This document shows positions 2,855 through 33,113 of a stretch of DNA of 64,000 nucleotides, piece after piece (the first letter of the stretch is position 1; each line of letters opens with the position of its first letter). The notes under the pieces were generated by a model, which was not told the DNA's origin, ran no database searches, and was given only the letters and a program-made list of their open reading frames with translations. The DNA is from an uncultured Alphaproteobacteria bacterium (GTDB taxonomy: Bacteria > Pseudomonadota > Alphaproteobacteria > GCA-2731375): positions 124,001-188,000 of the forward strand of contig CATOSZ010000003.1 in NCBI GenBank assembly GCA_951812805.1. Reading direction: 5' to 3'. The position numbers were made by a program, and so were the translations under genes.

Positions 2855-5800
2855 ATGGGCAACGAACGGGCAGCCTGGCGCTTCTGGGTCGATCGCGGTG
2901 GGACCTTCACGGACATCGTCGCGCGCCGCCCCGACGGCGGTTTCGTCACGGCCAAGCTGCTCTCGGAAAATCCCGAGCGCTATGCCGATGCCGCGTTGCA
3001 GGGTATCGGCGAGCTGCTCGACCTCGGCCCCGGCGAGACGATCCCGGCCGAGGCCATCGCGCATGTGAAGATGGGCACCACCGTCGGCACCAACGCCCTG
3101 CTGGAGCGGGCCGGCGAGCGGCTGGTGCTGGCGACCACGCGGGGTTTCGCCGACGCGCTCCGTATCGGCTATCAGAACCGACCCGACCTCTTCGCCCTCG
3201 ACATTCAGTTGCCCGAGCTGCTGCACGAACGGGTGGTCGAAATCGACGAACGCCTCGGTGCGCGCGGCGAGGTGCTGCACGAACTCGACCTCGAGGCTGC
3301 CGAGCGGGGCCTCCGCGCCGCCTTCGACGACGGTATCCGCGCCGTCGCCATCCTGTTGCTGCACGGCTATCGCTACCCGGCGCATGAGCGGGCGCTGGCC
3401 GAGCTCGCGGGCCGCATCGGCTTCACCCAGATCTCCACCAGCCATCAGGTGAGCCCGCTGATGAAGCTGGTCGGCCGCGGCGATACCACCGTGGTCGACG
3501 CCTACCTCTCGCCGCTGCTGCGCCGCTATGTCGACGGGATCGCGGCGGCACTCGGCGATACGCGGCTGATGTTCATGCAGTCCTCCGGCGGCCTGACCGA
3601 CGCGCGGCTGTTCCAGGGCCGCGACTGCATCCTCTCCGGCCCGGCCGGCGGCGTGGTCGGCGCCGTGCGCACGGCGGCCGATGCGGGCCACGACAAGATC
3701 ATCGGCTTCGACATGGGCGGCACCTCGACCGACGTCTCGCACTATGCGGGCGAGTACGAGCGTGCCTTCGAGACCGAGGTCGCGGGCGTGCGCATGCGCG
3801 CACCGATGATGCACATCCACACCGTCGCGGCCGGCGGCGGCTCGATCCTCGGCTTTGACGGGCGACGCTTCCAGGTCGGCCCGGAAAGCGCCGGTGCCAA
3901 TCCGGGCCCGGCCTGCTACCGGCGCGGCGGCCCGCTGGCGGTGACCGACTGCAACGTCATGCTCGGCCGCCTGCAGCCCGCGCACTTCCCTCGGGTCTTC
4001 GGGCCGGGCGCGGACCAGCCGCTCGACACCGACGTGGTGCGGGAGAAGTTCGCCGCGCTCGCCGCCGAGATCGGCCAGGCCACCGGCCGCACGCCCGAGC
4101 CCGAGGCAGTGGCCGAAGGCTTCCTCACCATCGCGGTCGAGAACATGGCGAACGCCATCAAGAAGATCTCCATCGAGCGCGGCTACGACGTCACCGAATA
4201 CGTCCTGGTCTGCTTCGGTGGGGCCGGCGGCCAGCATGCCTGCCGGGTCGCCGACTCGCTCTCAATGACGCGGATCCTGATCCATCCCTTCGCCGGCGTG
4301 CTCTCGGCGCTCGGCATCGGCCTCGCCGACGTGGCGGCGATGCGGGAGGCCTCGGTGGAGGCGGAACTGACGGACGACCTGCTGGGCGAACTGGAAACCC
4401 GGCTCGACACGCTGGCCGAGGACGCCCGGGCGGAGGTGGTGGGCCAGGGCGTGACGGCGGCGGACATCCGCATCATGCGCCGGGTCCATCTGCGCTACGC
4501 CGGCACCGACACGGCGCTGGTGGTGCCGCACGGCACGCGGGCGGAAATCGTCGCCGCCTTCGAAACGGCGCATCGCGCACAGTTCGGCTTCGTCGATCCC
4601 GACCGCGCGCACCTGGTCGAGGCGATCAGCCTCGAGGCGGTCGGCGGCGGCGAGGCGCTGGCCGACGCCCCGCCGGTGTCGTCCAGCGACGACGCGACGC
4701 CGATCGCCGAAGCCGCGCTGCACATCGAAGGAAACTGGACGCCGGCACCGATCTTCGAGCGCGCCGACCTCGGGTCGGGTGCCGCGGTCGACGGCCCGGC
4801 GATCCTGAAGGAGGCGACCGGCACCACGGTGGTCGAGCCCGGCTGGCGCGCCCGCTGCCTCGCCGACGGCCAGTTGCTGTTGGAGCGTGTCGTTGCCCTG
4901 CCGAAGCGGGTCGCGATCGGCACCGACGTCGATCCGGTCATGCTGGAGATCTTCAACAACCTCTTCATGTCGATCGCCGAGCAGATGGGCGTGGTCCTCG
5001 CCAACACCTCCTACTCGGTCAACATCAAGGAGCGGCTGGACTTCTCCTGCGCCGTGTTCGACGGCGCGGGCGAGCTGATCGCCAACGCGCCGCACATCCC
5101 CGTCCACCTCGGCTCGATGAGCGAGAGCATCAAGTCGGTGATCCGCGACCATGGCGACGCGATGTATCCAGGCGACGTCTTCGTGCAGAACGCGCCCTAC
5201 AACGGCGGCACCCACCTGCCCGACGTGACGGTGATCCAGCCGGTGTTCGACGCGGCGGGCCGGCGCCTGTTCTATATCGGCGCGCGCGGTCACCATGCCG
5301 ACATCGGTGGCATCACGCCCGGCTCCATGCCGCCGTTCTCCAAAAGCGTCGAAGAAGAAGGCATCCTGTTCGACAACCTGCGCCTGGTCGACCGCGGCCG
5401 CTTCCTGGAGGCGGAGACCCGCGCCCACCTCGCCTCCGGCCCCTGGCCGAGCCGGGCGATCGACCACAACATCGCCGACCTCAAGGCGCAGATCGCCGCC
5501 TGCGAGAAGGGCCGGCGCGAGCTGCTGGCGATGGTAGAGACCTTCGGCCACGACGTCGTCGCCGCCTACATGGGCCATGTCCAGGACAACGCGGAGGAAT
5601 CCGTGCGCCGGGTGATCGACCGGCTCGGCGACGGGGACGCGGAACTGACGATGGACGACGGCTCCACCATCCGCGCCGCCGTCAGGATCAACCGGGCGGC
5701 CCGCGCGGCGACCATCGACTTCACCGGCACCTCGGCGCAGCTGAACAGCAACTACAATGCGCCGACAGCGGTCTGCCGGGCCGCCGTGCTGTTCGCCTTC

Positions 5801-6466
5801 CGCACGCTGGTGCAATCCGACATCCCGCTCAACGCCGGCTGCCTGAAGCCGATCCGCATCGTTATTCCCGAAGCCTCGATGCTGAACCCGCGCTATCCCG
5901 CCGCCGTCGTCGCCGGCAACGTCGAGACCTCGACGGTGATCACCGACTGTTTGTTCGCGGCGCTCGGCGTGCTGGCGGGCAGCCAGGGGACGATGAACAA
6001 CTTCACCTTCGGCGACGACCGGGTGCAGTACTACGAGACGATCTGCGGCGGTGCGGGGGCCGGGGCAGAGTTCGACGGCGCCTCCGCGGTGCACACCCAC
6101 ATGACCAACTCGCGCCTCACCGATCCCGAGGTGCTGGAATGGCGGTTTCCGGTGCGGCTCGAGGAATTCTCGATCCTGCACGGTGGCGGTGGTGCTGGCC
6201 GGCACCGGGGCGGCGACGGGGTGCGCCGGGTCATCCGATTCCTGGAGCCGATGACCGCCTCCATGCTGGCGAACCGCCGGGCCGTGGCGCCGCAGGGCCT
6301 CGCCGGCGGCGGGCCGGGCCGCGCCGGGCGCAACTGGGTCGAGCGGGTCGACGGCAGCCGGGTCGAGCTGGCCGCCCGCGACTCGGCCGAGGTCGGCGCG
6401 GGCGACCTCTTCGTCATCGAGACACCGGCCGGCGGCGGCTTCGGGCCGGCGGGCGAGGACGCGTGA
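2855..6466 (+). CDS. Fused hydantoinase A/B, 5-oxoprolinase-like (ATP-dependent)
   Basis: A 1203-residue protein. Residues about 1-690 are the HyuA half with its actin-like ATPase motifs ([17 protein letters not shown] near the start, then [15 protein letters not shown]). Residues about 690-1203 are the HyuB half ([35 protein letters not shown]). The fusion resembles 5-oxoprolinase, which opens 5-oxoproline to glutamate using ATP; related enzymes act on hydantoins or other cyclic amides, so the substrate is open. It is followed 10 bp later by a BASS-type transporter gene that may import the substrate or export the product. ATG 2855 is chosen because the ATPase motif starts about 10 residues later. 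Confidence 0.9.
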
Positions 6467-11211: not shown

Positions 11212-12765
11212 TTATCGGTAGTAGCCGGGGCCGCGGATGTTGGTGTGTGGCGGCAGCGGCAGAAGCGGTTCGCGCTCGGGGCGTGTGCGATCGAGGCCGG
11301 ACTTGAGGATGGCGGCGAGCGATGAGTAGCTGGTCGTGTTGATGGTGAGCGCGCGTGCGCAGGCGGCCTCGACGCGTTCCGGTTCGTATCGGCGGGCGAG
11401 CGACAAGACGCCCATGGCGCTGCGATAGCCTTGCTCGGGATGGGGCCGATCGCGGATCATCCGCTCGACCAGGAGGGCGGCGTTGGGGCCGATGCGGCTG
11501 GCCTGGTCGATCAGGCTTTGTGGCGTTCGCTCGGCATAGCGCTGGTGCGCCTTGGGCATGTGGGCCGGGATCGTGGCATGGCCGCCATGCGGTGAGCGGC
11601 GGAGATGGCTGGCGACGCGCTTGTGGTTGTGGAAGATCTCGACCGTGCGGTGAGTGAGCCGGACTTGGACCTTGCGGCCGATCAGGCCGTGCGGCACGGA
11701 GTAGAAGCTGCGCTCGACGTCGACGTGATAGTCGGAATGGACCTTGGCGGTCTTCCATTCGGCATATTCGAAGGGCGTCGTCGGCAGGGGTGCCAGGGCC
11801 TCGCGCTCGATGGCCTCGAACATCTGGCGCCGGCTCTTTCCAAGGTTGCGCATGGGCCGCTCGTTGAGCTCCTCGAGGAGGTCGCGGATCGCCCGGTTGA
11901 GCTGGTCGAGGGAGAAGAAGCGCGTATTGCGCAGTCTTGCCAGGATCCAGCGCTCGACGACCTGGACGGCGACTTCGACCTTGGCCTTGTCGCGCGGCTT
12001 GCGGACCCGGGTCGGCAGGACGGTGGTGTCGTAGTGCTCGGCGAGCGCGGCGAAGGTCGGGTTGAGGGTCGGCTCGAACCAGAGCGGCTTGGCGACGCCG
12101 GCCTTGAGGTTATCGCAGACGATGCTCTTGGGCACGCCGCCGAAGTAGGCGAGCGCCCGGCATTGTCCGGCGACCCAGTCGGGCAGGCGCTGGGTCAGGC
12201 TGGCGGTGGCGAAGGTGAGCGAGGAAGCGCCCAGCACGGCGACGAAGATCTGCGCGTCGTGCACCTCGCCGGTCTCGGGGTCGACGATGTCCACCGTCTG
12301 GCCGGCATAATCGGTCTGCATGACCGCACCGGCCTCGTGGCGGTTGCGCCAGGTGGCGCCGGTGCGCCGCTTGAACGCCGTGAAGGCTTCGCAGAACCAG
12401 GTGTAGCCGTAGCCATCGGGATGTGAGGCGCGGTATTCCTGCCAGAGCAGGGTCAGCGTCACCCCCTTGCGCTTCAGCTCGGCCGCGACCGTCGGCCAGT
12501 GCGGCTCGCACCTGTCGCGCGGGGGCCGGCCCATGCGGCGGAACAGCGTCTCTTGCAGGACCGCGTCGTCCTCGTATTCCGCCGGCAGCGGCCAGGCGGT
12601 AAGGCCGACCTCGCGGGCCCGCAGCAAATAGGTCGACACTGTCGTCTTGGAGACCTTCAGCCGTTCCGCCACCTCTCGCGCCGAGAGGCCTTGGTCATGC
12701 GTCAGCCGCAGGATCGTTCGTGCATCTCTCACCGTCGTTCGTCTCGTCTGCTTCCGTCTGGGCAT
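11212..12765 (-). CDS. istA: IS21 transposase IstA
   Basis: A 517-residue transposase. Start ATG 12765 ([10 protein letters not shown]) is preferred over the in-frame ATG 12780 because a strong GGGAGGGG ribosome-binding site lies just upstream. An N-terminal helix-turn-helix ([18 protein letters not shown]) is followed by a DDE integrase core: [21 protein letters not shown] and the Glu in [14 protein letters not shown]. The C-terminal half holds the Mu-like beta-barrel segment [15 protein letters not shown]. It acts with IstB, whose gene starts 17 bp downstream. Confidence 0.94.
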
Positions 12766-12996
12766 GTCCCCTCCCGGCAAAAGCCAAGAGGTAGACGCCG
12801 AGACGGCGCACCCGAAAGCTGAACTCAGATCGCCCCGTGATGCTGTCCGGGACTTTCCGGAATCACTGGCCGCGACTTACTGAAATCTCTGGCCAGGACT
12901 TTCCGTAATCGGTGTCCGGGACTTTCCGAAACGCGCAAACATGTCGCCGACACCCTATTCTGGCGCTCCGAACGACCGAATCTTGGAGTGCCGGTG

Positions 12997-20342: not shown

Positions 20343-21110
20343 ATGCCGACCCGTTTTGCCCGTGACGAGGAATTCGCCGTCATCACCCTCGACCGGCCGG
20401 AGGCGCTCAACGCCTTGAGCTTCGAGGTGGTGGCCGATATCGCCCGCTACATCGACGAGGCCGAGGCGAGCGACGCCCGCGCCCTCGTCATCACCGGCGC
20501 GGGCGAAAAATCGTTCTGCGCCGGCGCCGACATCTCGGAGCTGATGGGCCGCTCTATCGAAGACGAGAAGGCGGGCGCCGAGCGCGGCCAGCGCGCCTTC
20601 GCCAAGCTGGATACGCTGCGCATTCCCTCGCTCGCGCTCATCAACGGCTTCGCGCTCGGCGGCGGGCTGGAACTGGCGATGGCTTGTACCTTCCGGATCT
20701 GCGTGCCCCGCGCCCGCCTCGGCCTGCCGGAGATCAAGCTCGGCCTGATCCCGGGCTATGGCGGCACCCAGCGCCTGCCGCGCCTGGTCGGCGAGGCCCG
20801 CGCGCTGGAACTGGTGATGAGCGGGCGCATGGTCCAGGCGGAGGAGGCGCGCGACATCGGCCTGGTCAGCCAGATCGTCGAGGGCGAGGCGATGGATGAA
20901 GCCAAGGCCTTCATGCGCCAGTTCACCGGCTTCGGCCTGCCCGCACTGCGTTTCGCGCGGGAAGCGGTGCGCCGTGCCGGCACGACGACGCTGGCCGAAG
21001 GGTTGGCGATCGAGGCCGATCTCAACACGCTGGCCTTCGAGACCGAGGACGCCGCGGAAGGCACCGCCGCCTTCCTGGAAAAGCGCCCGCCCCTCTTCCG
21101 GGACCGCTGA
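20343..21110 (+). CDS. Enoyl-CoA hydratase/isomerase family protein
   Basis: A 255-residue crotonase. ATG 20343 (MPTRFARDEEFAVITLDRP) has GGGAGAT upstream. The oxyanion-hole loops are FCAGADISELM and NGFALGGGLELAMAC. The catalytic region GLPEIKLGLIPGYGGTQRLP contains the Glu typical of hydratases. It would hydrate a 2-enoyl-CoA, or perform a related crotonase reaction. It lies second in the operon, 1 bp before the following SDR. Confidence 0.92.
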   Translation: MPTRFARDEEFAVITLDRPEALNALSFEVVADIARYIDEAEASDARALVITGAGEKSFCAGADISELMGRSIEDEKAGAERGQRAFAKLDTLRIPSLALINGFALGGGLELAMACTFRICVPRARLGLPEIKLGLIPGYGGTQRLPRLVGEARALELVMSGRMVQAEEARDIGLVSQIVEGEAMDEAKAFMRQFTGFGLPALRFAREAVRRAGTTTLAEGLAIEADLNTLAFETEDAAEGTAAFLEKRPPLFRDR

Positions 21111-21111
21111 G

Positions 21112-21858
21112 ATGACGGAAAAGGGTGCCGTCGCCGTCACCGGAGCCAGCCGCGGCATCGGTGCCGCCATCGCGCTGGAGCTGGCGCGCCGCGGCTGGCG
21201 CGTCGGCTGCCTCAGCCGCAAGGGCATCGGGCCCGAGGATCGCCCCGTACCCGCGGACCTGGCGCCGCTGCTGGAATATCATGCCCTCGACGTCACCGAC
21301 GAAGTGGCGGCGCGCGCCGTTTTCGCCACGCTCGCCGAGGGGCCGGACGGCCTTCGCGGCCTGGTCAACAACGCCGGCGCACACGCCGAGGGACCGAGCC
21401 ATGAATTCGCGACCGAGGATTTCGCCCATGTGATGGCGGTGAACGTCACCGCGCCCTTCGCCCTCAGCCGCGAGGTCTTTCCGCACCTGCAGGCGGCGGG
21501 CGGCGGCACCATCATCAATCTCGGCTCCTTCTTCGACAAGCTGGGGGTGCGGTACTCGGCCGCCTACTGCGCCTCCAAGGCGGGCATCGCCGGCCTCACC
21601 CGGGCCCTGGCGGTGGAGTGGGCGAAACGCGGCATCCGCGTCCTCGACGTGGCACCCGGCTATGTCGAGACCGACCTCAACGCCGGCCACCGGGAGAACG
21701 ACGGCTTCAACCGCTTCCTCGAACAACGCATTCCGACCGGCGGCCCGACCGACGCGGAAGAGGTCGGCCGCCTCGTCGGCGTGCTGTTCGACGAGGACCT
21801 GCCCTTCCTCACGGGCGAAACGATCTACCTCGACGGCGGACAGTCGATCCAGCAATGA
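21112..21858 (+). CDS. Short-chain dehydrogenase/reductase (SDR)
   Basis: A 248-residue classical SDR with the cofactor motif TGASRGIG at the N-terminus, NNAG in LVNNAGAHAEG, the catalytic Ser in IINLGSFFDKLG and Tyr/Lys in YCASK. The C-terminal FLTGETIYLDGGQS is standard. ATG 21112 lies 1 bp after the hydratase stop, and its own stop overlaps the monooxygenase ATG (ATGA), so translation is probably coupled. It may generate or use the ketone acted on by the neighbouring monooxygenase (inference). Confidence 0.92.
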   Translation: MTEKGAVAVTGASRGIGAAIALELARRGWRVGCLSRKGIGPEDRPVPADLAPLLEYHALDVTDEVAARAVFATLAEGPDGLRGLVNNAGAHAEGPSHEFATEDFAHVMAVNVTAPFALSREVFPHLQAAGGGTIINLGSFFDKLGVRYSAAYCASKAGIAGLTRALAVEWAKRGIRVLDVAPGYVETDLNAGHRENDGFNRFLEQRIPTGGPTDAEEVGRLVGVLFDEDLPFLTGETIYLDGGQSIQQ

Positions 21859-23468
21859 GGGACGGCGCAGACATTCCGACCTATGAGGCCATCGTCGTCG
21901 GCGGTGGGATATCGGGCATGTACCTGACCCATCGCCTGCGCGAGCTGGGCGTGCATTTCCACGTCTTCGAAGCCGGGTCGGACGTCGGCGGAACCTGGTA
22001 CTGGTGCCGCTATCCAGGCGCGCGGTTCGATTCCGAAAGCTGGACCTACGGCTTCTTCTTCGACGAGGAACTGCTGCAGGAATGGGACTGGAAAGAACAC
22101 TTCTCCCCGCAGCCCGATACGCTGGAATACCTCAACCACGTCGCGGACAGGTTCGATTTTCGCCGCGACATGACCTTCGATGCTTCCGTCGCCGCCGCCA
22201 CCTTTGACGACGCGGCAAACCTTTGGACGGTGACGCTGGAAGACGGCCGCCAGGCTCGGGCGTCGCTCCTGATCACCGGCCTCGGTGTGCTGTCGGCGCC
22301 GACGCTGCCCAACATCCCGGGGCGGGACGACTTCGCGGGCCCGAAGTTTCATACCGCCCGCTGGCCGCACGAGCCCGTCGACTTCACCAGCAAGCGGGTC
22401 GGCATCATCGGCACCGGCGCGACGGCGATCCAGGCGATCCCGGAGATCGCCAAGACCGCCGGCCATCTGACGGTCTTCCAGCGGGCACCCAACTGGGCGG
22501 CGCCCCTGCACAACGCCGCGATCACCCCGGAGGAACAGAAGGACATCAAGGCGCGCTACAAGGAGATCTATGCACGGTGCTGGGAAACGGTCGCCTGCTT
22601 CATCCATCACCCCGATCCGCGCAGCGCGCTGGAGGTCTCGCCCGAGGACCGCGAGGCCTTCTGGGAAAAGCTCTATTCGGAGCCCGGCTTCGGCATCTGG
22701 CTCGGCAACTTCCGCGACGTGCTGACCGACGAGCGGGCGAACGCGCTCGCAACCGCATTCATGGCGCGCAAGATCCGCGAACGGGTCGATGACCCGGTGC
22801 TCGCCGACAAGCTGACACCGAAGAACCACGGCTTCGGGACCCGGCGCCTGCCGCTCGAAAGCGGCTATTTCGAGGCCTACAACCGACCCAACGTCCGCCT
22901 CGTCGACATCGCCGAGGCACCGATCGAGCGGATTACGCCCGACGGCGTCGTGACCACGGCGCAAGCGCACCGCTTCGACATTCTGATCTATGCCACCGGC
23001 TTCGACGGCGTCACCGGCCCCTACGACCGCATCGACATCCGCGGGCCGGGCGGCCGTCGCCTGCGGGACGAGTGGAAGGAACTGCCGCGCACGTTTCTCG
23101 GCGTCATCAACGACGGCTTTCCGAACATGTTGATGGTGCTCGGCCCGCACACGGCGCGCGGCAACATTCCCCGCAACATCGAAATGATCGTCGACTTCAA
23201 TATCGGCCTGATCCGCCACATGCGCGCGCACGGCCACAAACGGGTCGCGGCGCGCAGCGAGGAAGCGGAGAAATGGCTCGAACAGGTGAAAGCGGTCGAC
23301 GCCGGCCTGCTGTCCAGCAAGATCGCGAGCTGGCAAACCGGCGTCAACCGTAACGTCGAGGGCCGCCAGACGCCCCGCGTGCTCGGCTACAACGGCGGTG
23401 CCGTCCGCTATCGCAAGCTCATCGAAAAGATCGCGGCCGGCGGCTACAAAGAGTTCGAGTTCGGGTGA
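21855..23468 (+). CDS. Baeyer-Villiger-type flavin monooxygenase
   Basis: A 537-residue protein. The FAD-binding Rossmann motif GGGISGMYL is near residue 16, the second nucleotide site GIIGTGATA near 183-191 would bind NADPH. The Baeyer-Villiger fingerprint FxGxxxHxxxW is exact at residues 160-170 (FAGPKFHTARW). Such enzymes insert oxygen next to a ketone to give an ester or lactone. It resembles cyclohexanone/acetone-type monooxygenases in size. It is the fourth gene of the operon; ATG 21855 overlaps the SDR stop. Confidence 0.9.
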   Translation: MRDGADIPTYEAIVVGGGISGMYLTHRLRELGVHFHVFEAGSDVGGTWYWCRYPGARFDSESWTYGFFFDEELLQEWDWKEHFSPQPDTLEYLNHVADRFDFRRDMTFDASVAAATFDDAANLWTVTLEDGRQARASLLITGLGVLSAPTLPNIPGRDDFAGPKFHTARWPHEPVDFTSKRVGIIGTGATAIQAIPEIAKTAGHLTVFQRAPNWAAPLHNAAITPEEQKDIKARYKEIYARCWETVACFIHHPDPRSALEVSPEDREAFWEKLYSEPGFGIWLGNFRDVLTDERANALATAFMARKIRERVDDPVLADKLTPKNHGFGTRRLPLESGYFEAYNRPNVRLVDIAEAPIERITPDGVVTTAQAHRFDILIYATGFDGVTGPYDRIDIRGPGGRRLRDEWKELPRTFLGVINDGFPNMLMVLGPHTARGNIPRNIEMIVDFNIGLIRHMRAHGHKRVAARSEEAEKWLEQVKAVDAGLLSSKIASWQTGVNRNVEGRQTPRVLGYNGGAVRYRKLIEKIAAGGYKEFEFG

Positions 23469-23494: not shown

Positions 23495-24712
23495 ATGGCC
23501 GACAAACGTCGAATCAACGTGGCCTCGGGCCGCCCGCTGGAGCCTCTTGCGCATTATTCCCGCGCACTTCGCGTCGGCGATACGGTGCTGCAGTCGGGGA
23601 CGACGGCGATCGACACCGAGGGCAACGTGATCGGCGAGGGCGATGTCGCGAGCCAGGTCGACGCCATCCTCGACATCGCGGCCGACAGCATGGGCAAGGC
23701 CGGCGGGCGGCTCGACGACGTGGTCAGAAGCCGCGTCTACGTCACCGACATTGCGCTTGCGGACGCGGCGGGACGGGCACTGGCGCGGCATTTTCGCGAC
23801 GTCCGGCCGGCCACCACGCTGGTGCAGGTGAACCGCCTCGCCCGCCCGACCCAGCTGATCGAGATCGAATTCGATGCGATCGACGGCGCCCGCCAACGGG
23901 CCCGCCATGTCACCTCCGGCAGTCCCTCGGAAGACCTCTACGGCTATTCACGCGCGGTCCGGGTGGGCGAGCGGATCTTCGTCTCCGGCACCACGGCGCG
24001 AAACGAGGCGGGCGGCGTCGACGGCATCGACGATATGTACGCGCAGACCCGGCGCATCTTCGCGACCCTGGAAGCCGCGCTCGACGAGGCCGGCGGCAGC
24101 CTCGCCGACCTCGTCTACACCAAGACCTTCGCCACCCGGATGAGCGATGCGGACGCCGGCAGGCGGGCGCGGCTCGAGGCCTTGGGCGAGGTGCGGCCGA
24201 CGGCGACGCTGCTTGGCGTGCCGGCCGTGCTGCGCCCCGAAATGCTGGTCGAAATCGAGGCGGAAGCGATCGTCGGCGCGGCCGCGACACGGCACGACAT
24301 CTACACCGAGAATGAGCGCGAACGGGCGCGGGGCTATGCCCGTGCGGTCGCCGTCGGCGACGTCGTCCATGTCAGCGGCTGCACATCGATTGACGCGGAC
24401 GGCCGGGTGCAGGCGCCCGGCGACTGGGCCCGGCAGTACGACCTCTGCCACGAGGCCATTGGCCGGGCCCTGGCGGACGCCGGGCTGGTGCTTGACGACG
24501 TGGTCCGCCGGCGCATCTTCACGGTCGCTTCGGCAACACAGAACCGCCCTTACGGCGAGGGACCCGGCTGGTTCGCCGCCAGCCGTCCGGTCTCGATGGG
24601 TTGCCGGATCGCCGATCTGGCCTCGCCCGACATGCTAGTCGAGGTCGATGCCGTGGCGATCCGCGGCGCCCATGGCGACATCGAGTGGCGCGGACCCGCG
24701 GATACGACCTGA
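23495..24712 (+). CDS. RidA-family protein with three tandem RidA domains
   Basis: A 405-residue protein made of three RidA/YjgF-like repeats, at about residues 5-130, 138-262 and 270-392. Each repeat has the same landmarks: YSRALRVGD / YSRAVRVGE / YARAVAVGD, then a VxxSGTT-like strand, a DDVV or ADLV helix, and a closing IEIEFDAI / VEIEAEAI / VEVDAVAI. Ordinary RidA is about 130 residues and forms trimers, so this chain may be a covalent pseudo-trimer (inference). The position of the RidA catalytic Arg seems to be Thr in repeat 1 (RPATT), and no clear equivalent is seen in the others. It is last in the operon, with GGGAGGA before ATG 23495. Confidence 0.88.
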   Translation: MADKRRINVASGRPLEPLAHYSRALRVGDTVLQSGTTAIDTEGNVIGEGDVASQVDAILDIAADSMGKAGGRLDDVVRSRVYVTDIALADAAGRALARHFRDVRPATTLVQVNRLARPTQLIEIEFDAIDGARQRARHVTSGSPSEDLYGYSRAVRVGERIFVSGTTARNEAGGVDGIDDMYAQTRRIFATLEAALDEAGGSLADLVYTKTFATRMSDADAGRRARLEALGEVRPTATLLGVPAVLRPEMLVEIEAEAIVGAAATRHDIYTENERERARGYARAVAVGDVVHVSGCTSIDADGRVQAPGDWARQYDLCHEAIGRALADAGLVLDDVVRRRIFTVASATQNRPYGEGPGWFAASRPVSMGCRIADLASPDMLVEVDAVAIRGAHGDIEWRGPADTT

Positions 24713-24862: not shown

Positions 24863-26395
24863 ATGGTCGACAGCGCCGCGAGTCCCGACCTTCGAAGACC
24901 GGCGTTCCTGCAGCTGAACCGACAGCAATGGCTGATCCTGTTGATGATCCAGCTGTCGAACCTGCTGTTCAACATGACGATCACGGTGGCCAACCTCGTG
25001 CTGCCGCAGATGCGCGGTGCCCTGGCGGCGACACCCGACGAGATCTCCTGGGTGATCACGCTGAACCTGATCGCGACCGCGATCGTGACGCCGATGACCG
25101 GCTGGCTTGCCGGACGGCTCGGCTGGCGCAACATGATGCTGTGGACCGTCGGCGGCTTCACCCTCGCCTCGGCCTTCTGCGGCCTGGCGGGCAGCCTGGA
25201 GACGCTGATTCTGGCCCGCGTCATACAAGGCGGCTTCGGGGCGCCGATCGCGCCCTTAGGCCAGGCCATCCTGATCGCGACCTTTCCCCGCCACCTGCTG
25301 CCCTTCGCCCTCGTCATGTGGGGGGTCGGCGCGGTGTTCGGGCCGGTGTTGGGGCCGATCATCGGGGCGCTGGCGACCGAGGCGTGGAACTGGCGGGCCG
25401 CCTTCTTCATGATCGTGCCGCCGGGCATCCTCACCCTGGTTTGCATCTGGTTCGCGCTCGGGCGCGATACGACGCTCAGCCGGGTCCGCTTCGACTGGAT
25501 CGGCTTCCTCGCTCTCGCCTGCACCTTGATCTGCGCCCAGCTGATCTTCGATCGCGGCCACCGCTTCGACTGGTTCGATTCACCCCTGATCGTGGTTTGC
25601 GCCTTCCTCGGCCTCGTTTCGTTCTGGATTTTCGTCATCCAGTGCTCGACGGCGAAGAACCCGTTCCTCGACTTTGCCCTGCTGCGCGACCGCAACTTCA
25701 CCGTCGGCACCGTCATCGCCTTCGCCGTCGGCATGTTGAGCTTCACGAGCCTGGTGCTGTTTCCGACGCTGCTGCACGATCTCCGGGGCTATCCCGAAGA
25801 CGCCATCAGCACACTGATCGCCGCCCGCGGCCTCGGCAACTGGACGGCCTTCTTCTTCATCTCGACGCTAACGCGGCTGATACCGCGGCTCTGCATCGCC
25901 GCCGGCTTCGCGATCCAGGCGGTCAGTTGCCTGTGGATGACGAGTTTCGACATCAACGTCACCGACTTCGCCATTTTCTGGAGCCATTATCTCATGGGGC
26001 TCGGCAACAGCGTCGTCTTCACGCCGATGGTGGCCATGGCCTTTTCGACGTTGCCGCGGCACCGGATCACGGAAGGCGCGGCCGTCTTCACCATGATGCG
26101 GAACTTCGGCTCCAGCATGTTCGTATCGCTCACCGTGCTGGTCTTCCTGCGATCGCGCTCGATCAACGAGGCCGAGCTGTCGGAGCACATCAATCCGTTT
26201 CGCTCCCTGCCCGTCCATGCGGGCGCCGCCGATGTCTGGGATACGGGCACGACCCTCGGCCTGGCGCGAATCTCGGGCGAGGTCGGCCGGCAGGCGGCCA
26301 TGATCGGCTATATCAACGCCTTCACGATCATGGCCATCGCCGCCATCCTCGCCATACCGCTCGCCCTGCTGCTGCGCCGGCCGCCGGACGAGTAA
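24863..26395 (+). CDS. MFS transporter, DHA2 (EmrB/QacA) drug-exporter type
   Basis: A 510-residue membrane protein with about 14 hydrophobic segments. Motif A-like GWLAGRLGWRNMML follows helix 2, and GVGAVFGPVLGPIIGAL is the antiporter motif C of helix 5. It would exchange protons for a small organic compound, probably as an efflux pump. It lies 150 bp after the RidA-type gene on the same strand, so it could export a product or toxic intermediate of that pathway, but it may have its own promoter. It ends 21 bp before the convergent CLC gene. Confidence 0.9.
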   Translation: MVDSAASPDLRRPAFLQLNRQQWLILLMIQLSNLLFNMTITVANLVLPQMRGALAATPDEISWVITLNLIATAIVTPMTGWLAGRLGWRNMMLWTVGGFTLASAFCGLAGSLETLILARVIQGGFGAPIAPLGQAILIATFPRHLLPFALVMWGVGAVFGPVLGPIIGALATEAWNWRAAFFMIVPPGILTLVCIWFALGRDTTLSRVRFDWIGFLALACTLICAQLIFDRGHRFDWFDSPLIVVCAFLGLVSFWIFVIQCSTAKNPFLDFALLRDRNFTVGTVIAFAVGMLSFTSLVLFPTLLHDLRGYPEDAISTLIAARGLGNWTAFFFISTLTRLIPRLCIAAGFAIQAVSCLWMTSFDINVTDFAIFWSHYLMGLGNSVVFTPMVAMAFSTLPRHRITEGAAVFTMMRNFGSSMFVSLTVLVFLRSRSINEAELSEHINPFRSLPVHAGAADVWDTGTTLGLARISGEVGRQAAMIGYINAFTIMAIAAILAIPLALLLRRPPDE

Positions 26396-28238: not shown

Positions 28239-31200
28239 TCAGAAGTCGATTTTGCGCTTGGTAACGCCACCCCTGGCGAACAGGAAATCCGGTTGCTCCG
28301 CGAGCCAGGCCGGATCGAAAAGGGTGAAGGCCGCATCGATCACGCCGCCCCGCCGATCGACACGCAGATGGGCGACCACGACCGGGCCGCAATCCGCCCA
28401 ACGGCGATACTCCCGCGCAGACCCGCCAGGGCCGACGATCAGCGGTGCGCGCGCTTCGCCGCGCCGGCCGGCGGGCCACGACACCGACCAGCCTTCGCGG
28501 GGTTGGACGATCGCCGCCAATTCGCCGCAGAGTTCGGAATCGACGCCCTGGCTTCGCGGATGCCAGACATAGGCGCCCCGCCCGTCGCGCCAATCCGCCT
28601 TGCCGTATTTGTTCAACAGGCCCGCCTCGATATCGCCGGCGTCGGGACGGTCACGGCCGAAGTAGAGCCGTCGGCTGACGCCCGCGAGGCGCATGCCGGA
28701 GGCGGTCGCGAGCCAATAGGCCGCGATGCCGCGGGTGCCGCGTGAATCGACGGCCAGCTCGGCGGCATCGAACGGTCGCGGGTCGGCGAGCGTCGCGGTC
28801 TCGTTCGAGCCGGATCGATCAACCATGATGCGGCGCACCGCCTCGGGCGCCATGCCAAGACGCAGCGAAACGATGTCCGGCCCATACGCCCGGCGCGCCG
28901 GCCGGTCGGCGCAGGCCGCGAGCGCGCGGCGTCCGGCGCGGGATCCGGCACGCGGTAGCCACGACCTGGTATCGGCATCGTCGAAGCGCACGCGGCAATT
29001 CCGCTGGGCGGCCGAGTCGGCGGTCCGGCGCGATGCCGTCGCGGCACGGGCATCGCGCACCTTGGCACGGCATTCCCGCGCGGTATCCGCCATGCCACGC
29101 TGTGCCTCGACATAGCCGCACAGCCGCTCGGCACAGGCGAGCTTCTCGTCCCCATCGCGAAGCGCCGAACACTGTTCGCGCCGCCGGCGGATTTCCGCCA
29201 GAACCTGCTCCGGGTTGTCGGCCCTGGCGGGCGACGCGGGCGCGGCGGCGCGCGGCGCCTTGCCGTCGGCGCCGAGGCTGGCGAAGATTTGCCCATCGGG
29301 GGCGGCGAAATCCACACGAACGACCCGGCCCGTGAAGGCCGCGGCGAGGCGCTTCTCGTCCGGCCGCCGCGCCGGCGCCGCACCCGTCACCTCGACGGTG
29401 AGACGCGCGCGATACCAGCCCTCGCCCCGCGCCGGTGCGCGTTGGGGTCCGTCCTCCAACAGGCGTCGTGCCGCCCGCCGTCCCATGGCGATCCCTTCCA
29501 TGCGAAGCGGCGCGTCGAGGATCAGGGCCCGCGGCGTCGGCAGCAACTCGGCGACGTCGCGCCGCCATTCGACGACCGGCGCCAGCATATCGCCGAGGAT
29601 GTCGTTGTTGGGAAAGCCTGTACGCAGCGCCTCCCGGTCGTCGCCCGGCGGCGAGAGGTGATAGGCGTTCCGCCCCTTGGCCGACGCCGGCAACAGGAAA
29701 CGATCGCGGCTGCCGCGCTTTCGTTTGTTGCCGTAGACGGCACCCCGGATGGGCTTCAACAGGTCGAGCTGTTTCACGAACCTGGCATCGGACGCGACGA
29801 CGCCCGGCGTTTCATAGGCCGGGCGGGCGAAGCGAAGCTGCCGCCTTTCCCGGTCGTAGCCGATCGACGGCAGGCCGACCTCGAGCACCAGATAGGGCGT
29901 CTCGGCAGCGCGCTTGGCCGCCGCCTCCAGATGCTCGCGAACCAGGGGGTCGACGTCCGAGATCGGGCTCGAAGCGTCCCGCCGCTGGCTCTGGGCGCGG
30001 GAGAGGACGGTCGCGGTGACCAGGGCCGATTGTCCGCGACGCCAGTTCGGATGCCTGCGGACGAAGCCCCAGTCGTCGCCGGCATCGACGAAGGCGTCCA
30101 TCAAGGGGCCGTTGGCGAGGCCCGGATTGACTTCGGCGGTCCGCGACCATTCATAGATGAAGTGCTGGCGCTTGCGGTTGAGCTGGCGCCGTTTCCCCCT
30201 GTCGGCGAGGATGTCGTCGATTCCATCCCATTGCGCCGCCTCGGCGGCGACGCGCCGCCGGGCGAGTTCCGCCACCATCCGCTTGCGCAACAGACCCGGC
30301 GCCCGGCCGAGCGCGGCGAGCGCCAGGTTCGAGCCGGTGAAGTCGAGGACCTCCCCCGCATCGACGGCTTCGGGGGCCGCGGGCCCCGCATCGGTCGGCA
30401 CCGGTTTCGCTGCCGCCACCGTCGCGGCGGCCGGCGCGGTCAGGTCGTAGTCGTGCAGCAACCGGCCGTCCGCCGGGTTGAAGGCCTGGGCCTGCACGAT
30501 GCTTGCCTGGAAATCGAAACCGGCGGCACGGGCCCGCTTCGGTCGCGTCTCGATGATCGCTTCGATGCGGACCTTGCGCGGCTTGCCGGCGTTGCGCAGT
30601 CCGCGGACCAGCGCCTTCGCCTCGTCACCGGTCATCGGCAGCGTCGTCACCGCGCCGCCGCCCGTAATCGTAATGTAGCTACGGTCCGGCTCGCCCGGAA
30701 TGCCGATGCGGAAGCGTCCGCATCCGTTGCCGTCGCGGACCACGACATAGCGGCGGGTCAGCGGTGCGGCGAGTGGGAAGTAGCCTTTGTCGAAATCGAA
30801 GCGTTCGAGGCCGATATCGAATTTCAGGCGGAAACGGGTGCTGTCGGGCCAGTCCGCGGCGTCGGCGAGGTCGGCCGCATAGTCCCGTCGCGCATCGCGC
30901 AGCAACGCCGCGCGGCGGCGCTGGCTCTCGTAGCGGGCGCGGATCGCGCGACAAGCATCGCCCGTGGCGGCGCGCCGATCGTTCAGCTGGCGCACGAAAT
31001 AGGCATGATGCAGCAAAGCCGAGGCCTCGGCATCGGCGGCGACGTGACCGCCGTTCGCCAGCTTCAAGCGATAAAGCGCATCGAACGTCGGCGGGCCGAG
31101 CCGGCCACGCCGCGCCGGCGCCCCGGTCTCGCGCCCGACCGTCTCGCGGGTGGCCGGCCGGGTTTCGGTCACCGGCGCCGGTTTCGCCGCGGTCTCGGTC

Positions 31201-32177
31201 CTGGGCGCGGGCGCCGTCGCGGCGGGTGCCGGTGCGGGCGCCAGTCCGGCCGGTGCGACGTTCGGATCATCCCCCTCCGCCTCGCGCAGCAGGCGGACCA
31301 GGGCCTGAGTGACACGGCCGTCGACCGGCAGGTCCTCGTCGCTTTGGAAGGCGCGCACCGCTTCCGCGGTCTGCGCCGGTGCGCCGCCTTCGTCCGGTCC
31401 GGCGTCGTAGCCAAGGCGGTTCAAGCGCAGGCGCGCCTCCGCGTCGAGCGCGGCCTGGCCCGTCGGGGCGGCGGCCGTGGTCGTGGGTCTGGACGTGGTC
31501 GCGCGGGGTGCCTCCCGGCTCGTCGCGCGCGGCGCCGGGGCCGAGGTCGTCGTCGCGCGTGCGACGTCGCGCTCCTCCTCGACCTCGCGCGATCCGCGCC
31601 AGCTCGCCGTTTCACCATTGTCCGAGACGGCGCCGCGGTCGGTCGTCTCCGTGCCGGCGGCGCTCTCTCGCTCGGGCGCCGTCTCGCGCGGCGCAGGCGC
31701 GGTCTCGCGGCTTGCCGTCTCGCTCGCGCCGGCGTCGATGTCGCGCAAGGCCCGCATGACCCGCGGCGTCGGCAGACCGGTCACTTCCATGCCTTCGGCC
31801 CGCTCGAACGCGCGGATGGCGCCCCGCGTGCCCCGGCCGTACAGGCCGTCGACCGAACCGCCGAGATGACCGAGATCCTTGAGATAGCCCTGCATCTCGC
31901 GCACCCAGGGCCGGTCGTAGCGCGCCGGTTCCCCATCGATCGTCTCGCGCGAGGTCGTGCGGGGCTCTGACGTCGTAGAGGTCGTGGTGGCCGGCTCGCG
32001 GGACGGGGCCGGGCGTGGTGCCGGCTTCGTCGTATCGGAGCCGTCCTCCGTCTCCGCCCGTTCGCCGGCTTTTTTGATATCGCCCCAGATCTTGTCGAAA
32101 TCAATTTGCGCCACCGCGCCCGACGGCGCCAACAGCATGGCCGTCAGGGCGAAGGCGACCAGGCGTCCCATAACCAT
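28239..32177 (-). CDS. Large secreted protein with two peptidoglycan-binding domains
   Basis: A 1312-residue protein read from ATG 32177, preceded by GAGGGAGT. Residues 1-24 form a Sec signal peptide ending AVAQ. Two peptidoglycan_binding_1-like domains are seen at about 91-146 (MQGYLKDLGHLGGSVDGLYG) and 244-300 (RLNRLGYDAGPDEGG), joined by a ~90-residue Thr/Ser/Arg/Glu/Pro/Ala linker. The remaining ~1000 residues are a large soluble region that I cannot assign firmly; parts recall DUF4852. A Cys-rich helical segment lies near residues 990-1090, and the C-terminus ends VTKRKIDF. It is probably periplasmic and cell-wall associated. It sits alone, convergent with nothing and divergent from the aldolase gene. 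Confidence 0.8.
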   Translation of the reverse strand: MVMGRLVAFALTAMLLAPSGAVAQIDFDKIWGDIKKAGERAETEDGSDTTKPAPRPAPSREPATTTSTTSEPRTTSRETIDGEPARYDRPWVREMQGYLKDLGHLGGSVDGLYGRGTRGAIRAFERAEGMEVTGLPTPRVMRALRDIDAGASETASRETAPAPRETAPERESAAGTETTDRGAVSDNGETASWRGSREVEEERDVARATTTSAPAPRATSREAPRATTSRPTTTAAAPTGQAALDAEARLRLNRLGYDAGPDEGGAPAQTAEAVRAFQSDEDLPVDGRVTQALVRLLREAEGDDPNVAPAGLAPAPAPAATAPAPRTETAAKPAPVTETRPATRETVGRETGAPARRGRLGPPTFDALYRLKLANGGHVAADAEASALLHHAYFVRQLNDRRAATGDACRAIRARYESQRRRAALLRDARRDYAADLADAADWPDSTRFRLKFDIGLERFDFDKGYFPLAAPLTRRYVVVRDGNGCGRFRIGIPGEPDRSYITITGGGAVTTLPMTGDEAKALVRGLRNAGKPRKVRIEAIIETRPKRARAAGFDFQASIVQAQAFNPADGRLLHDYDLTAPAAATVAAAKPVPTDAGPAAPEAVDAGEVLDFTGSNLALAALGRAPGLLRKRMVAELARRRVAAEAAQWDGIDDILADRGKRRQLNRKRQHFIYEWSRTAEVNPGLANGPLMDAFVDAGDDWGFVRRHPNWRRGQSALVTATVLSRAQSQRRDASSPISDVDPLVREHLEAAAKRAAETPYLVLEVGLPSIGYDRERRQLRFARPAYETPGVVASDARFVKQLDLLKPIRGAVYGNKRKRGSRDRFLLPASAKGRNAYHLSPPGDDREALRTGFPNNDILGDMLAPVVEWRRDVAELLPTPRALILDAPLRMEGIAMGRRAARRLLEDGPQRAPARGEGWYRARLTVEVTGAAPARRPDEKRLAAAFTGRVVRVDFAAPDGQIFASLGADGKAPRAAAPASPARADNPEQVLAEIRRRREQCSALRDGDEKLACAERLCGYVEAQRGMADTARECRAKVRDARAATASRRTADSAAQRNCRVRFDDADTRSWLPRAGSRAGRRALAACADRPARRAYGPDIVSLRLGMAPEAVRRIMVDRSGSNETATLADPRPFDAAELAVDSRGTRGIAAYWLATASGMRLAGVSRRLYFGRDRPDAGDIEAGLLNKYGKADWRDGRGAYVWHPRSQGVDSELCGELAAIVQPREGWSVSWPAGRRGEARAPLIVGPGGSAREYRRWADCGPVVVAHLRVDRRGGVIDAAFTLFDPAWLAEQPDFLFARGGVTKRKIDF

Positions 32178-32327
32178 GGCCCCATACTCCCTCGATTCAC
32201 CGCCCCACGCGTAACCGACTATAGCGCGCTCCGTCGCAGGCGACCACGTCGCCCTTGATCCAAACCGCGCGGAGGGAGGATAGTGGCGCCGAAACGACAC
32301 GGGTGATGGGAAACGGAGAGCGAGACC

Positions 32328-33113
32328 ATGAGCGCGGTTGCGGAACACGAACGTCGAAACGAGGTCGGGCAGAGCGAGGCGGAGATCCGCGAGGAACTGG
32401 CGGCCTGTTATCGGATCTTCGACATGCTGGGCTGGACCGAGCTGATCTTCAACCACATCACCGCCAAGGTGCCGGGGCCGGAGGAACACTTCCTGATCAA
32501 CCCCTACGGCCTGATGTATTCCGAGGTCACCGCCTCCAACCTGGTGAAGATCGACCTCGACGGCAACGTCATCGGCAACAGCGACTGGCCGGTCAACCAG
32601 GCCGGCTACATCATTCATTCCGCCGTCCACCGGGCCCGCGAGGACGCGCACTGCATCATGCACACCCACACCACGAGCGGCCTGGCCGTCGCCTGCCTGG
32701 AGGAAGGTTTAACCCAGACCAATTTCTATTCCGCCTTCCTGCACGACAAGATCGCCTATCACGACTTCGAGGGCGTGACGACGCGGGACGACGAGTGTCC
32801 GCGCCTGGTCGCCAGCCTGGCCGACAAGAACCTGATGATCCTGCGCAGCCACGGCCTGCTGTCGTGCGGCACCTCGATTCCGGACGCCTTCCAGCGCTTG
32901 TGGACGTTGCAGCGGGCGTGCGACGTCCAGGTGGCCGCCGCCTCGGCCGCCGCCGCCACCGGTGGCAAAGTTCTGCCCGTGCCGGAAGCGGCCGCGCGCT
33001 ATTCGAGCGATGCCCGGGAGGACGAGTCGAACCACAGCGTCCAGGTCCGGGACGTGATCTTCGCCGCACTGCGCCGCCGTCTCGACGCCAAGGACCAAAG
33101 CTACAAGGATTGA
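32328..33113 (+). CDS. Class II aldolase/adducin family protein
   Basis: A 261-residue protein of the fuculose-phosphate aldolase/adducin family. The zinc-ligand motif HTHTTSGLAV (residues about 108-117) and the later His in RSHGLLSCG are present, along with the phosphate/substrate loop FNHITAKVPG. Such proteins catalyse retro-aldol cleavage, epimerisation or decarboxylation of sugar phosphates or related acids. The next gene, an FAD oxidoreductase, starts 4 bp downstream, so the two form an operon. ATG 32328 begins the conserved region. Confidence 0.88.
   Translation: MSAVAEHERRNEVGQSEAEIREELAACYRIFDMLGWTELIFNHITAKVPGPEEHFLINPYGLMYSEVTASNLVKIDLDGNVIGNSDWPVNQAGYIIHSAVHRAREDAHCIMHTHTTSGLAVACLEEGLTQTNFYSAFLHDKIAYHDFEGVTTRDDECPRLVASLADKNLMILRSHGLLSCGTSIPDAFQRLWTLQRACDVQVAAASAAAATGGKVLPVPEAAARYSSDAREDESNHSVQVRDVIFAALRRRLDAKDQSYKD

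Follow-up and report, generated by a model that had tools for sequence, protein, structure and literature searches.

According to Niehaus et al. (2015; PMC4433059), the Rid superfamily has been divided by the presence of an arginine residue, and proteins termed '3x-RidA', such as EF_0115 from Enterococcus faecalis, have been proposed to be covalently linked trimers and were counted as a subset of RidA, with rare two- and four-domain forms also known. This arginine, Arg105, has been supported as the determinant and predictor of deaminase activity in a 2017 study (PMC5619798). Rid7, a member without this residue, showed no activity toward the imines tested (PMC5619798, PMC4433059). Rid-fold deaminases of catabolic pathways, including RutC (TIGR03610, PDB 3v4d) and the 2-aminomuconate deaminase AmnE (PDB 6izh), retain this residue, as part of a PARF motif in RutC and as Arg117 in AmnE (PMC6742747). 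Rv2704 from Mycobacterium tuberculosis (PDB 3i7t), by contrast, is a Rid protein known to lack this arginine and has no assigned role (PMC5038272).

We analyzed a window of 64,000 nucleotides from the genome of an uncultured alphaproteobacterium, in which an open reading frame of 405 residues, uninterrupted by stop codons and preceded by a ribosome-binding-like AGGA 5' of its ATG, encodes a protein hereafter called 3xRid (Table 1). Pfam identifies three PF01042 (Ribonuc_L-PSP) domains: the full-length protein scores 196 bits, and repeats 1, 2 and 3, when scanned separately, reach 79.5, 70 and 55.9 bits (cut-off 27.3). The repeats share 42% (repeats 1 and 2), 37% (1 and 3) and 31% (2 and 3) identity, with E-values from 5e-28 to 4e-12, a likeness far beyond chance. 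The initial annotation, which had described a chain of three diverged RidA-type repeats, is thus confirmed on this point, while the motifs it assigned to all of them, YSRAxRVG at the start and VEIE at the end, fit repeats 1 (YSRALRVG, although ending in LIEIE) and 2 (YSRAVRVG, LVEIE) well and repeat 3 (YARAVAVG, LVEVD) only loosely. Like 3x-RidA, 3xRid contains three Rid domains in tandem on a single polypeptide. Since covalent trimers were already proposed in PMC4433059, neither the triple-Rid architecture nor the idea of a pseudo-trimer, described since 2015, is new. What is new is the loss of the arginine in all repeats, the text consulted in PMC4433059 giving no Arg105 state for 3x-RidA, together with a conserved motif in repeat 3 and signs of repeated triplication.

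Table 1. Coordinates of 3xRid, its repeats and neighboring genes, and of related fusion proteins (positions in the window unless a locus is given).
Feature	Coordinates	Strand	Remarks
Enoyl-CoA hydratase domain gene	20370..21110	+	same operon; gene start not fixed
Short-chain dehydrogenase/reductase (SDR)	21112..21858	+	same operon
Baeyer-Villiger monooxygenase-like (BVMO) flavin monooxygenase gene	21855..23468	+	signature FAGPKFHTARW
3xRid gene, three tandem PF01042 (Rid) domains, 405 aa	23495..24712	+	Pfam domain hits; AF2 pTM 0.92
Rid domain 1, ~residues 15-131	23537..23887	+	Arg105 position = T107; Tyr17 = Y21; Gly31 = G35; Glu120 = E123
Rid domain 2, ~residues 145-261	23927..24277	+	Arg105 position = A237; Y151; G165; E253
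Rid domain 3, ~residues 275-391	24317..24667	+	Arg105 position = S367; Y281; E383
EmrB-type DHA2 MFS exporter	24863..26395	+	operon membership uncertain
Aldo/keto reductase with C-terminal single Rid domain	L124:421-1878		
Aldo/keto reductase with C-terminal single Rid domain	L126:382-1872		
Aldo/keto reductase with C-terminal single Rid domain	L130:424-1881		

The fold of 3xRid was predicted with AlphaFold2. With the sequences of seven 3x orthologues, a pLDDT of 77.3 and a pTM of 0.84 were obtained, and with 37 sequences, after the addition of 30 single-domain relatives, these values were 93.3 and 0.92, supporting a confident relative placement of the three repeats, which are all predicted to adopt the Rid fold and to pack together. 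When the whole chain was compared to the PDB using Foldseek, three chorismatase structures (5a3k, 5ag3 and 4bps) ranked first, over 365-381 columns, with TMt values of 0.58-0.61, E-values of 6e-14 to 2e-12 and 17-19% identity. The moderate TM-scores (about 0.5-0.6) are explained in part by the difference in chain length. The next matches were single Rid proteins covering one repeat, among which Rv2704 reached a TMt of 0.96; with a sequence match of 5.7e-20, it is also the closest solved single Rid domain and, as judged by alignment, it shares the absence of Arg105 with 3xRid (see also PMC5038272), from which it differs by having one domain per chain. RutC and AmnE are likewise single-domain chains and, unlike 3xRid, have kept the arginine. 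Collectively, the whole-chain match to chorismatases and the match of one repeat to Rv2704 make it well supported, at the level of predicted structure, that 3xRid is an intramolecular pseudo-trimer, in which one chain takes the place of the usual homotrimer and which thereby resembles the covalent trimer unit proposed for 3x-RidA. The suggestion that one molecule might form a whole trimer with three unlike sites is supported by this model and by the differing residues at the three sites. In BFVD, the top whole-chain match was a predicted YjgF-like protein from Pandoravirus.

The resemblance to chorismatases, which are single chains with the same whole-chain Rid-like arrangement, opens a first alternative for the function of 3xRid. 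In chorismatases, the Rid barrel serves to hydrolyze an enol ether. Similarly, 3xRid might act as a non-nitrogen hydrolase or tautomerase with one working cleft, its substrate being an enol, an enol ether or a beta-keto compound such as a product of the BVMO or enoyl-CoA enzymes. That chorismatases are the closest whole-chain fold match speaks for this alternative, while the low identity and the lack of any match of 3xRid to a chorismatase family in Pfam or NCBIfam speak against it. Chorismatases also differ by a shorter chain and have no family model in common with 3xRid.

To assess the active sites, the residues of Escherichia coli RidA were mapped onto the three repeats by HMM alignment. 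Tyr17, Gly31 and Glu120 have equivalents in all three repeats, and no repeat contains an arginine at position 105, which is occupied by T107, A237 and S367, in agreement with the earlier remark that the typical catalytic arginine is not evident. An arginine found in an R-P-x-T sequence was considered as a shifted catalytic residue and rejected, as it precedes the conserved proline instead of following it by two residues. Two single-domain paralogs from the same genome (L002 and L008) contain a P-A-R motif lying one column off in the alignment, which we read as an alignment shift; since both keep this motif, canonical-type Rid proteins are probably encoded elsewhere in this genome. The genome (7.4 Mb) contains a large Rid set, with 23 PF01042 matches.

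Given that Arg105 is considered the determinant of deaminase activity and that Rid7 did not act on the imines tested, the chemistry of 3xRid may not be deamination at all, and altered chemistry is plausible. A classical enamine/imine (2-aminoacrylate) deaminase, in which covalent trimerization would be incidental, is accordingly the least probable of the functions considered here, and highly improbable in our view. The Rid fold and the retained tyrosine, glycine and glutamate residues would suit such an enzyme. Likewise, TIGR00004 ('Rid family detoxifying hydrolase') is matched with 113 bits for a cut-off of 106.25, but this score is reached only by summing the repeats, which individually score 56, 34.7 and 30.6 bits, all far below the cut-off. 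In addition to the missing arginine, no PLP enzyme or amine oxidase was found adjoining the 3xRid gene. The RutC model TIGR03610 is also among the best NCBIfam matches, with 112.6 bits, which is below its equivalog cut-off of 169.1.

Within one genus (g3) of the same family, six of the 11 sampled genomes encode orthologs of 3xRid with 69-72% identity. Named orthologs come from Rhodospirillaceae and other alphaproteobacterial metagenome-assembled genomes (MAGs) and, with 62-64% identity, from two Rokubacteria MAGs. Across these two phyla, the pocket tyrosine, glycine and glutamate residues are invariant or nearly so. This conservation argues against a third possibility, namely that 3xRid is a non-catalytic binding or regulatory protein whose pocket residues are kept for ligand sensing, as do the tight position of its gene in an operon of enzymes and, at locus L030, directly after HyuB. 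The loss of the arginine and the variable genomic neighbors would be consistent with such a role, and non-enzymatic functions, including chaperone activity, have been reported for some Rid-fold proteins (PMC4433059); we nevertheless judge it improbable.

In repeats 1 and 2 of about nine distinct orthologs, position 105 varies among small residues, with a leucine in one instance. In repeat 3, the motif P-[VA]-S-[ML]-G-C-R-[IV] is kept in every one of them, with S367 invariant and, four residues later at RidA position 109, R371 also invariant. If the strand is regular, R371 would lie on the same face as position 105. Repeat 3 also contains a diverged loop (N350-R351...G356-P357).

The initial annotation had further suggested that 3xRid might carry out a step specific to the operon around it. 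The gene organization is indeed compact: the SDR gene begins one base after the enoyl-CoA hydratase gene, the start of the BVMO gene overlaps the SDR stop codon (ATGA), 3xRid starts 26 bases past the BVMO stop codon and the MFS exporter gene follows 150 bases downstream of 3xRid. However, tblastn searches and gene calls at nine ortholog loci (62-72% identity) found none of the enoyl-CoA hydratase, SDR, BVMO and MFS genes adjacent to 3xRid, the nearest case being an SDR of 34% identity located ~3 kb away in L033. An operon-dedicated step is thus not supported, and a role tied to this operon was discarded. Neighbors were left out at some GC-rich loci (e.g., L027, L145 and L146), where open reading frames were called on the wrong strand.

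At these loci, the orthologs are flanked by different genes. In L030, HyuA and HyuB immediately precede the ortholog and an aldo/keto reductase lies downstream; HyuA is also present in L024. A Zn-alcohol dehydrogenase is encoded immediately upstream in L028 and, according to gene calls, in L021 and L022. An M20 peptidase and an amidohydrolase are found in L032, while in L033 the opposite strand encodes a metallo-beta-lactamase-fold protein. The neighbors of other 3x families include creatininase, amidohydrolase, amidase, polysaccharide-deacetylase-like, AMP-ligase, SDR (in L142) and ferredoxin-reductase genes. In a raw tally of neighbors, functions in carbonyl redox and C-N hydrolysis recur, a pattern which we regard as a lead. 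Single Rid domains close to the 3xRid family also occur as C-terminal fusions to aldo/keto reductases (Table 1); this arrangement is recurrent in Alphaproteobacteria, and no description of it was found in the literature searched. These neighborhoods bear on the chorismatase-like alternative in two ways. The enoyl-CoA hydratase, SDR and BVMO genes of the window would suit it, as would the lost Arg105 and the fusion of another 3x array from the same genome to an acyl-CoA synthetase-like AMP-ligase, while the hydantoinase and amidohydrolase genes next to orthologs suggest C-N chemistry instead. On balance, we consider it possible but unlikely.

The reading we favor, and hold to be probable, is that 3xRid is a Rid hydrolase of pseudo-trimeric build, whose substrate is a reactive imine, enamine or enol intermediate lacking the alpha-carboxylate that Arg105 reads in RidA. 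Three tandem domains, each with a full Rid fold, are strongly predicted to pack into a one-polypeptide trimer. All three repeats lack the arginine that serves as the alpha-carboxylate clamp for RidA substrates, while the pocket tyrosine, glycine and glutamate residues remain. A small reactive compound would still be bound in the clefts between repeats and be hydrolyzed or tautomerized there; an imine/enamine, or a related enol, devoid of the alpha-carboxylate is the most likely candidate. The resulting carbonyl product could be used by a neighboring dehydrogenase or reductase, and such partners are recurrent: an SDR in the window and in L142, the Zn-alcohol dehydrogenase of L028, the aldo/keto reductase by HyuA/HyuB in L030 and the aldo/keto reductase-Rid fusions. 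The cleft built around the strand of repeat 3, where Ser-x-Gly-Cys-Arg is invariant, may be the specialized catalytic site, as suggested by about nine orthologs and by position counting, the other two clefts serving in part as scaffold. 3xRid would then be a portable module found beside differing C-N or carbonyl pathways and not bound to the local BVMO operon, with the caveats that neighbors vary among orthologs and that reductases are common neighbors of any gene.

A search for other triple-RidA proteins, proposed with the initial annotation, retrieved, besides the orthologs, more full-length 3x proteins in Alphaproteobacteria when a seven-row profile was used. A plasmid search returned no 3x protein and only partial matches to single domains. 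All multi-domain proteins detected at the retrieved loci contain three Rid domains, neither more nor fewer, a count that the triple-length query may favor, and by HMM alignment none of the domains of the retrieved 3x proteins has Arg105. In a maximum-likelihood tree of 91 domains and 138 columns, the three repeats of the 3xRid family cluster with arginine-less single-domain Rid proteins (96/91). Two other alphaproteobacterial sets of 3x proteins, one a family (100/98) and one a large group (98/97), are placed separately, and each has its own repeat-specific clades. The separate placement of the three groups suggests that triplication arose independently at least three times, a suggestion kept short of proof by long branches and the small number of columns. 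If correct, covalent linking would be an easy and recurrent route of symmetry breaking for an enzyme with interfacial sites. A more far-reaching and rather doubtful extension is that several independent triplications freed the clefts of arginine-less single-chain Rid barrels to diverge, and that the repeat-3 cleft gained a new substrate along with the relocated invariant R371 (RidA position 109). 3xRid would then be an asymmetric Rid enzyme in which a single active site is new and performs chemistry so far undescribed in the superfamily. No function is known for Rid4-7-like proteins without the catalytic arginine, and 3xRid offers a practical handle on them, because a covalent trimer allows each site to be mutated separately, which is impossible in a homotrimer.

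Other arrangements were observed along the way. Two triple-Rid genes are adjacent, for a total of six Rid domains in two proteins, in three genomes of one genus (L027:6697-9257, L138:5804-8357 and L125:126-2667). L009:6965-9754(-), which corresponds to C9:344967-347753 of the same genome as 3xRid, encodes a 929-residue protein in which an AMP-dependent acyl-CoA synthetase-like ligase is fused to three Rid domains. In relatives, the triple-Rid part (63-75% identical) is encoded by a gene of its own, and in four of five loci a more distant AMP-ligase (about 31%) is encoded no more than a few kb away. The window itself also encodes a fused hydantoinase A/B (oxoprolinase-type) protein of 1203 residues (2855-6466, + strand), a Mu/rve-type transposase (11212-12780, - strand) and an open frame of 1476 residues (28239-32669, - strand) whose sole Pfam matches are peptidoglycan-binding domains.
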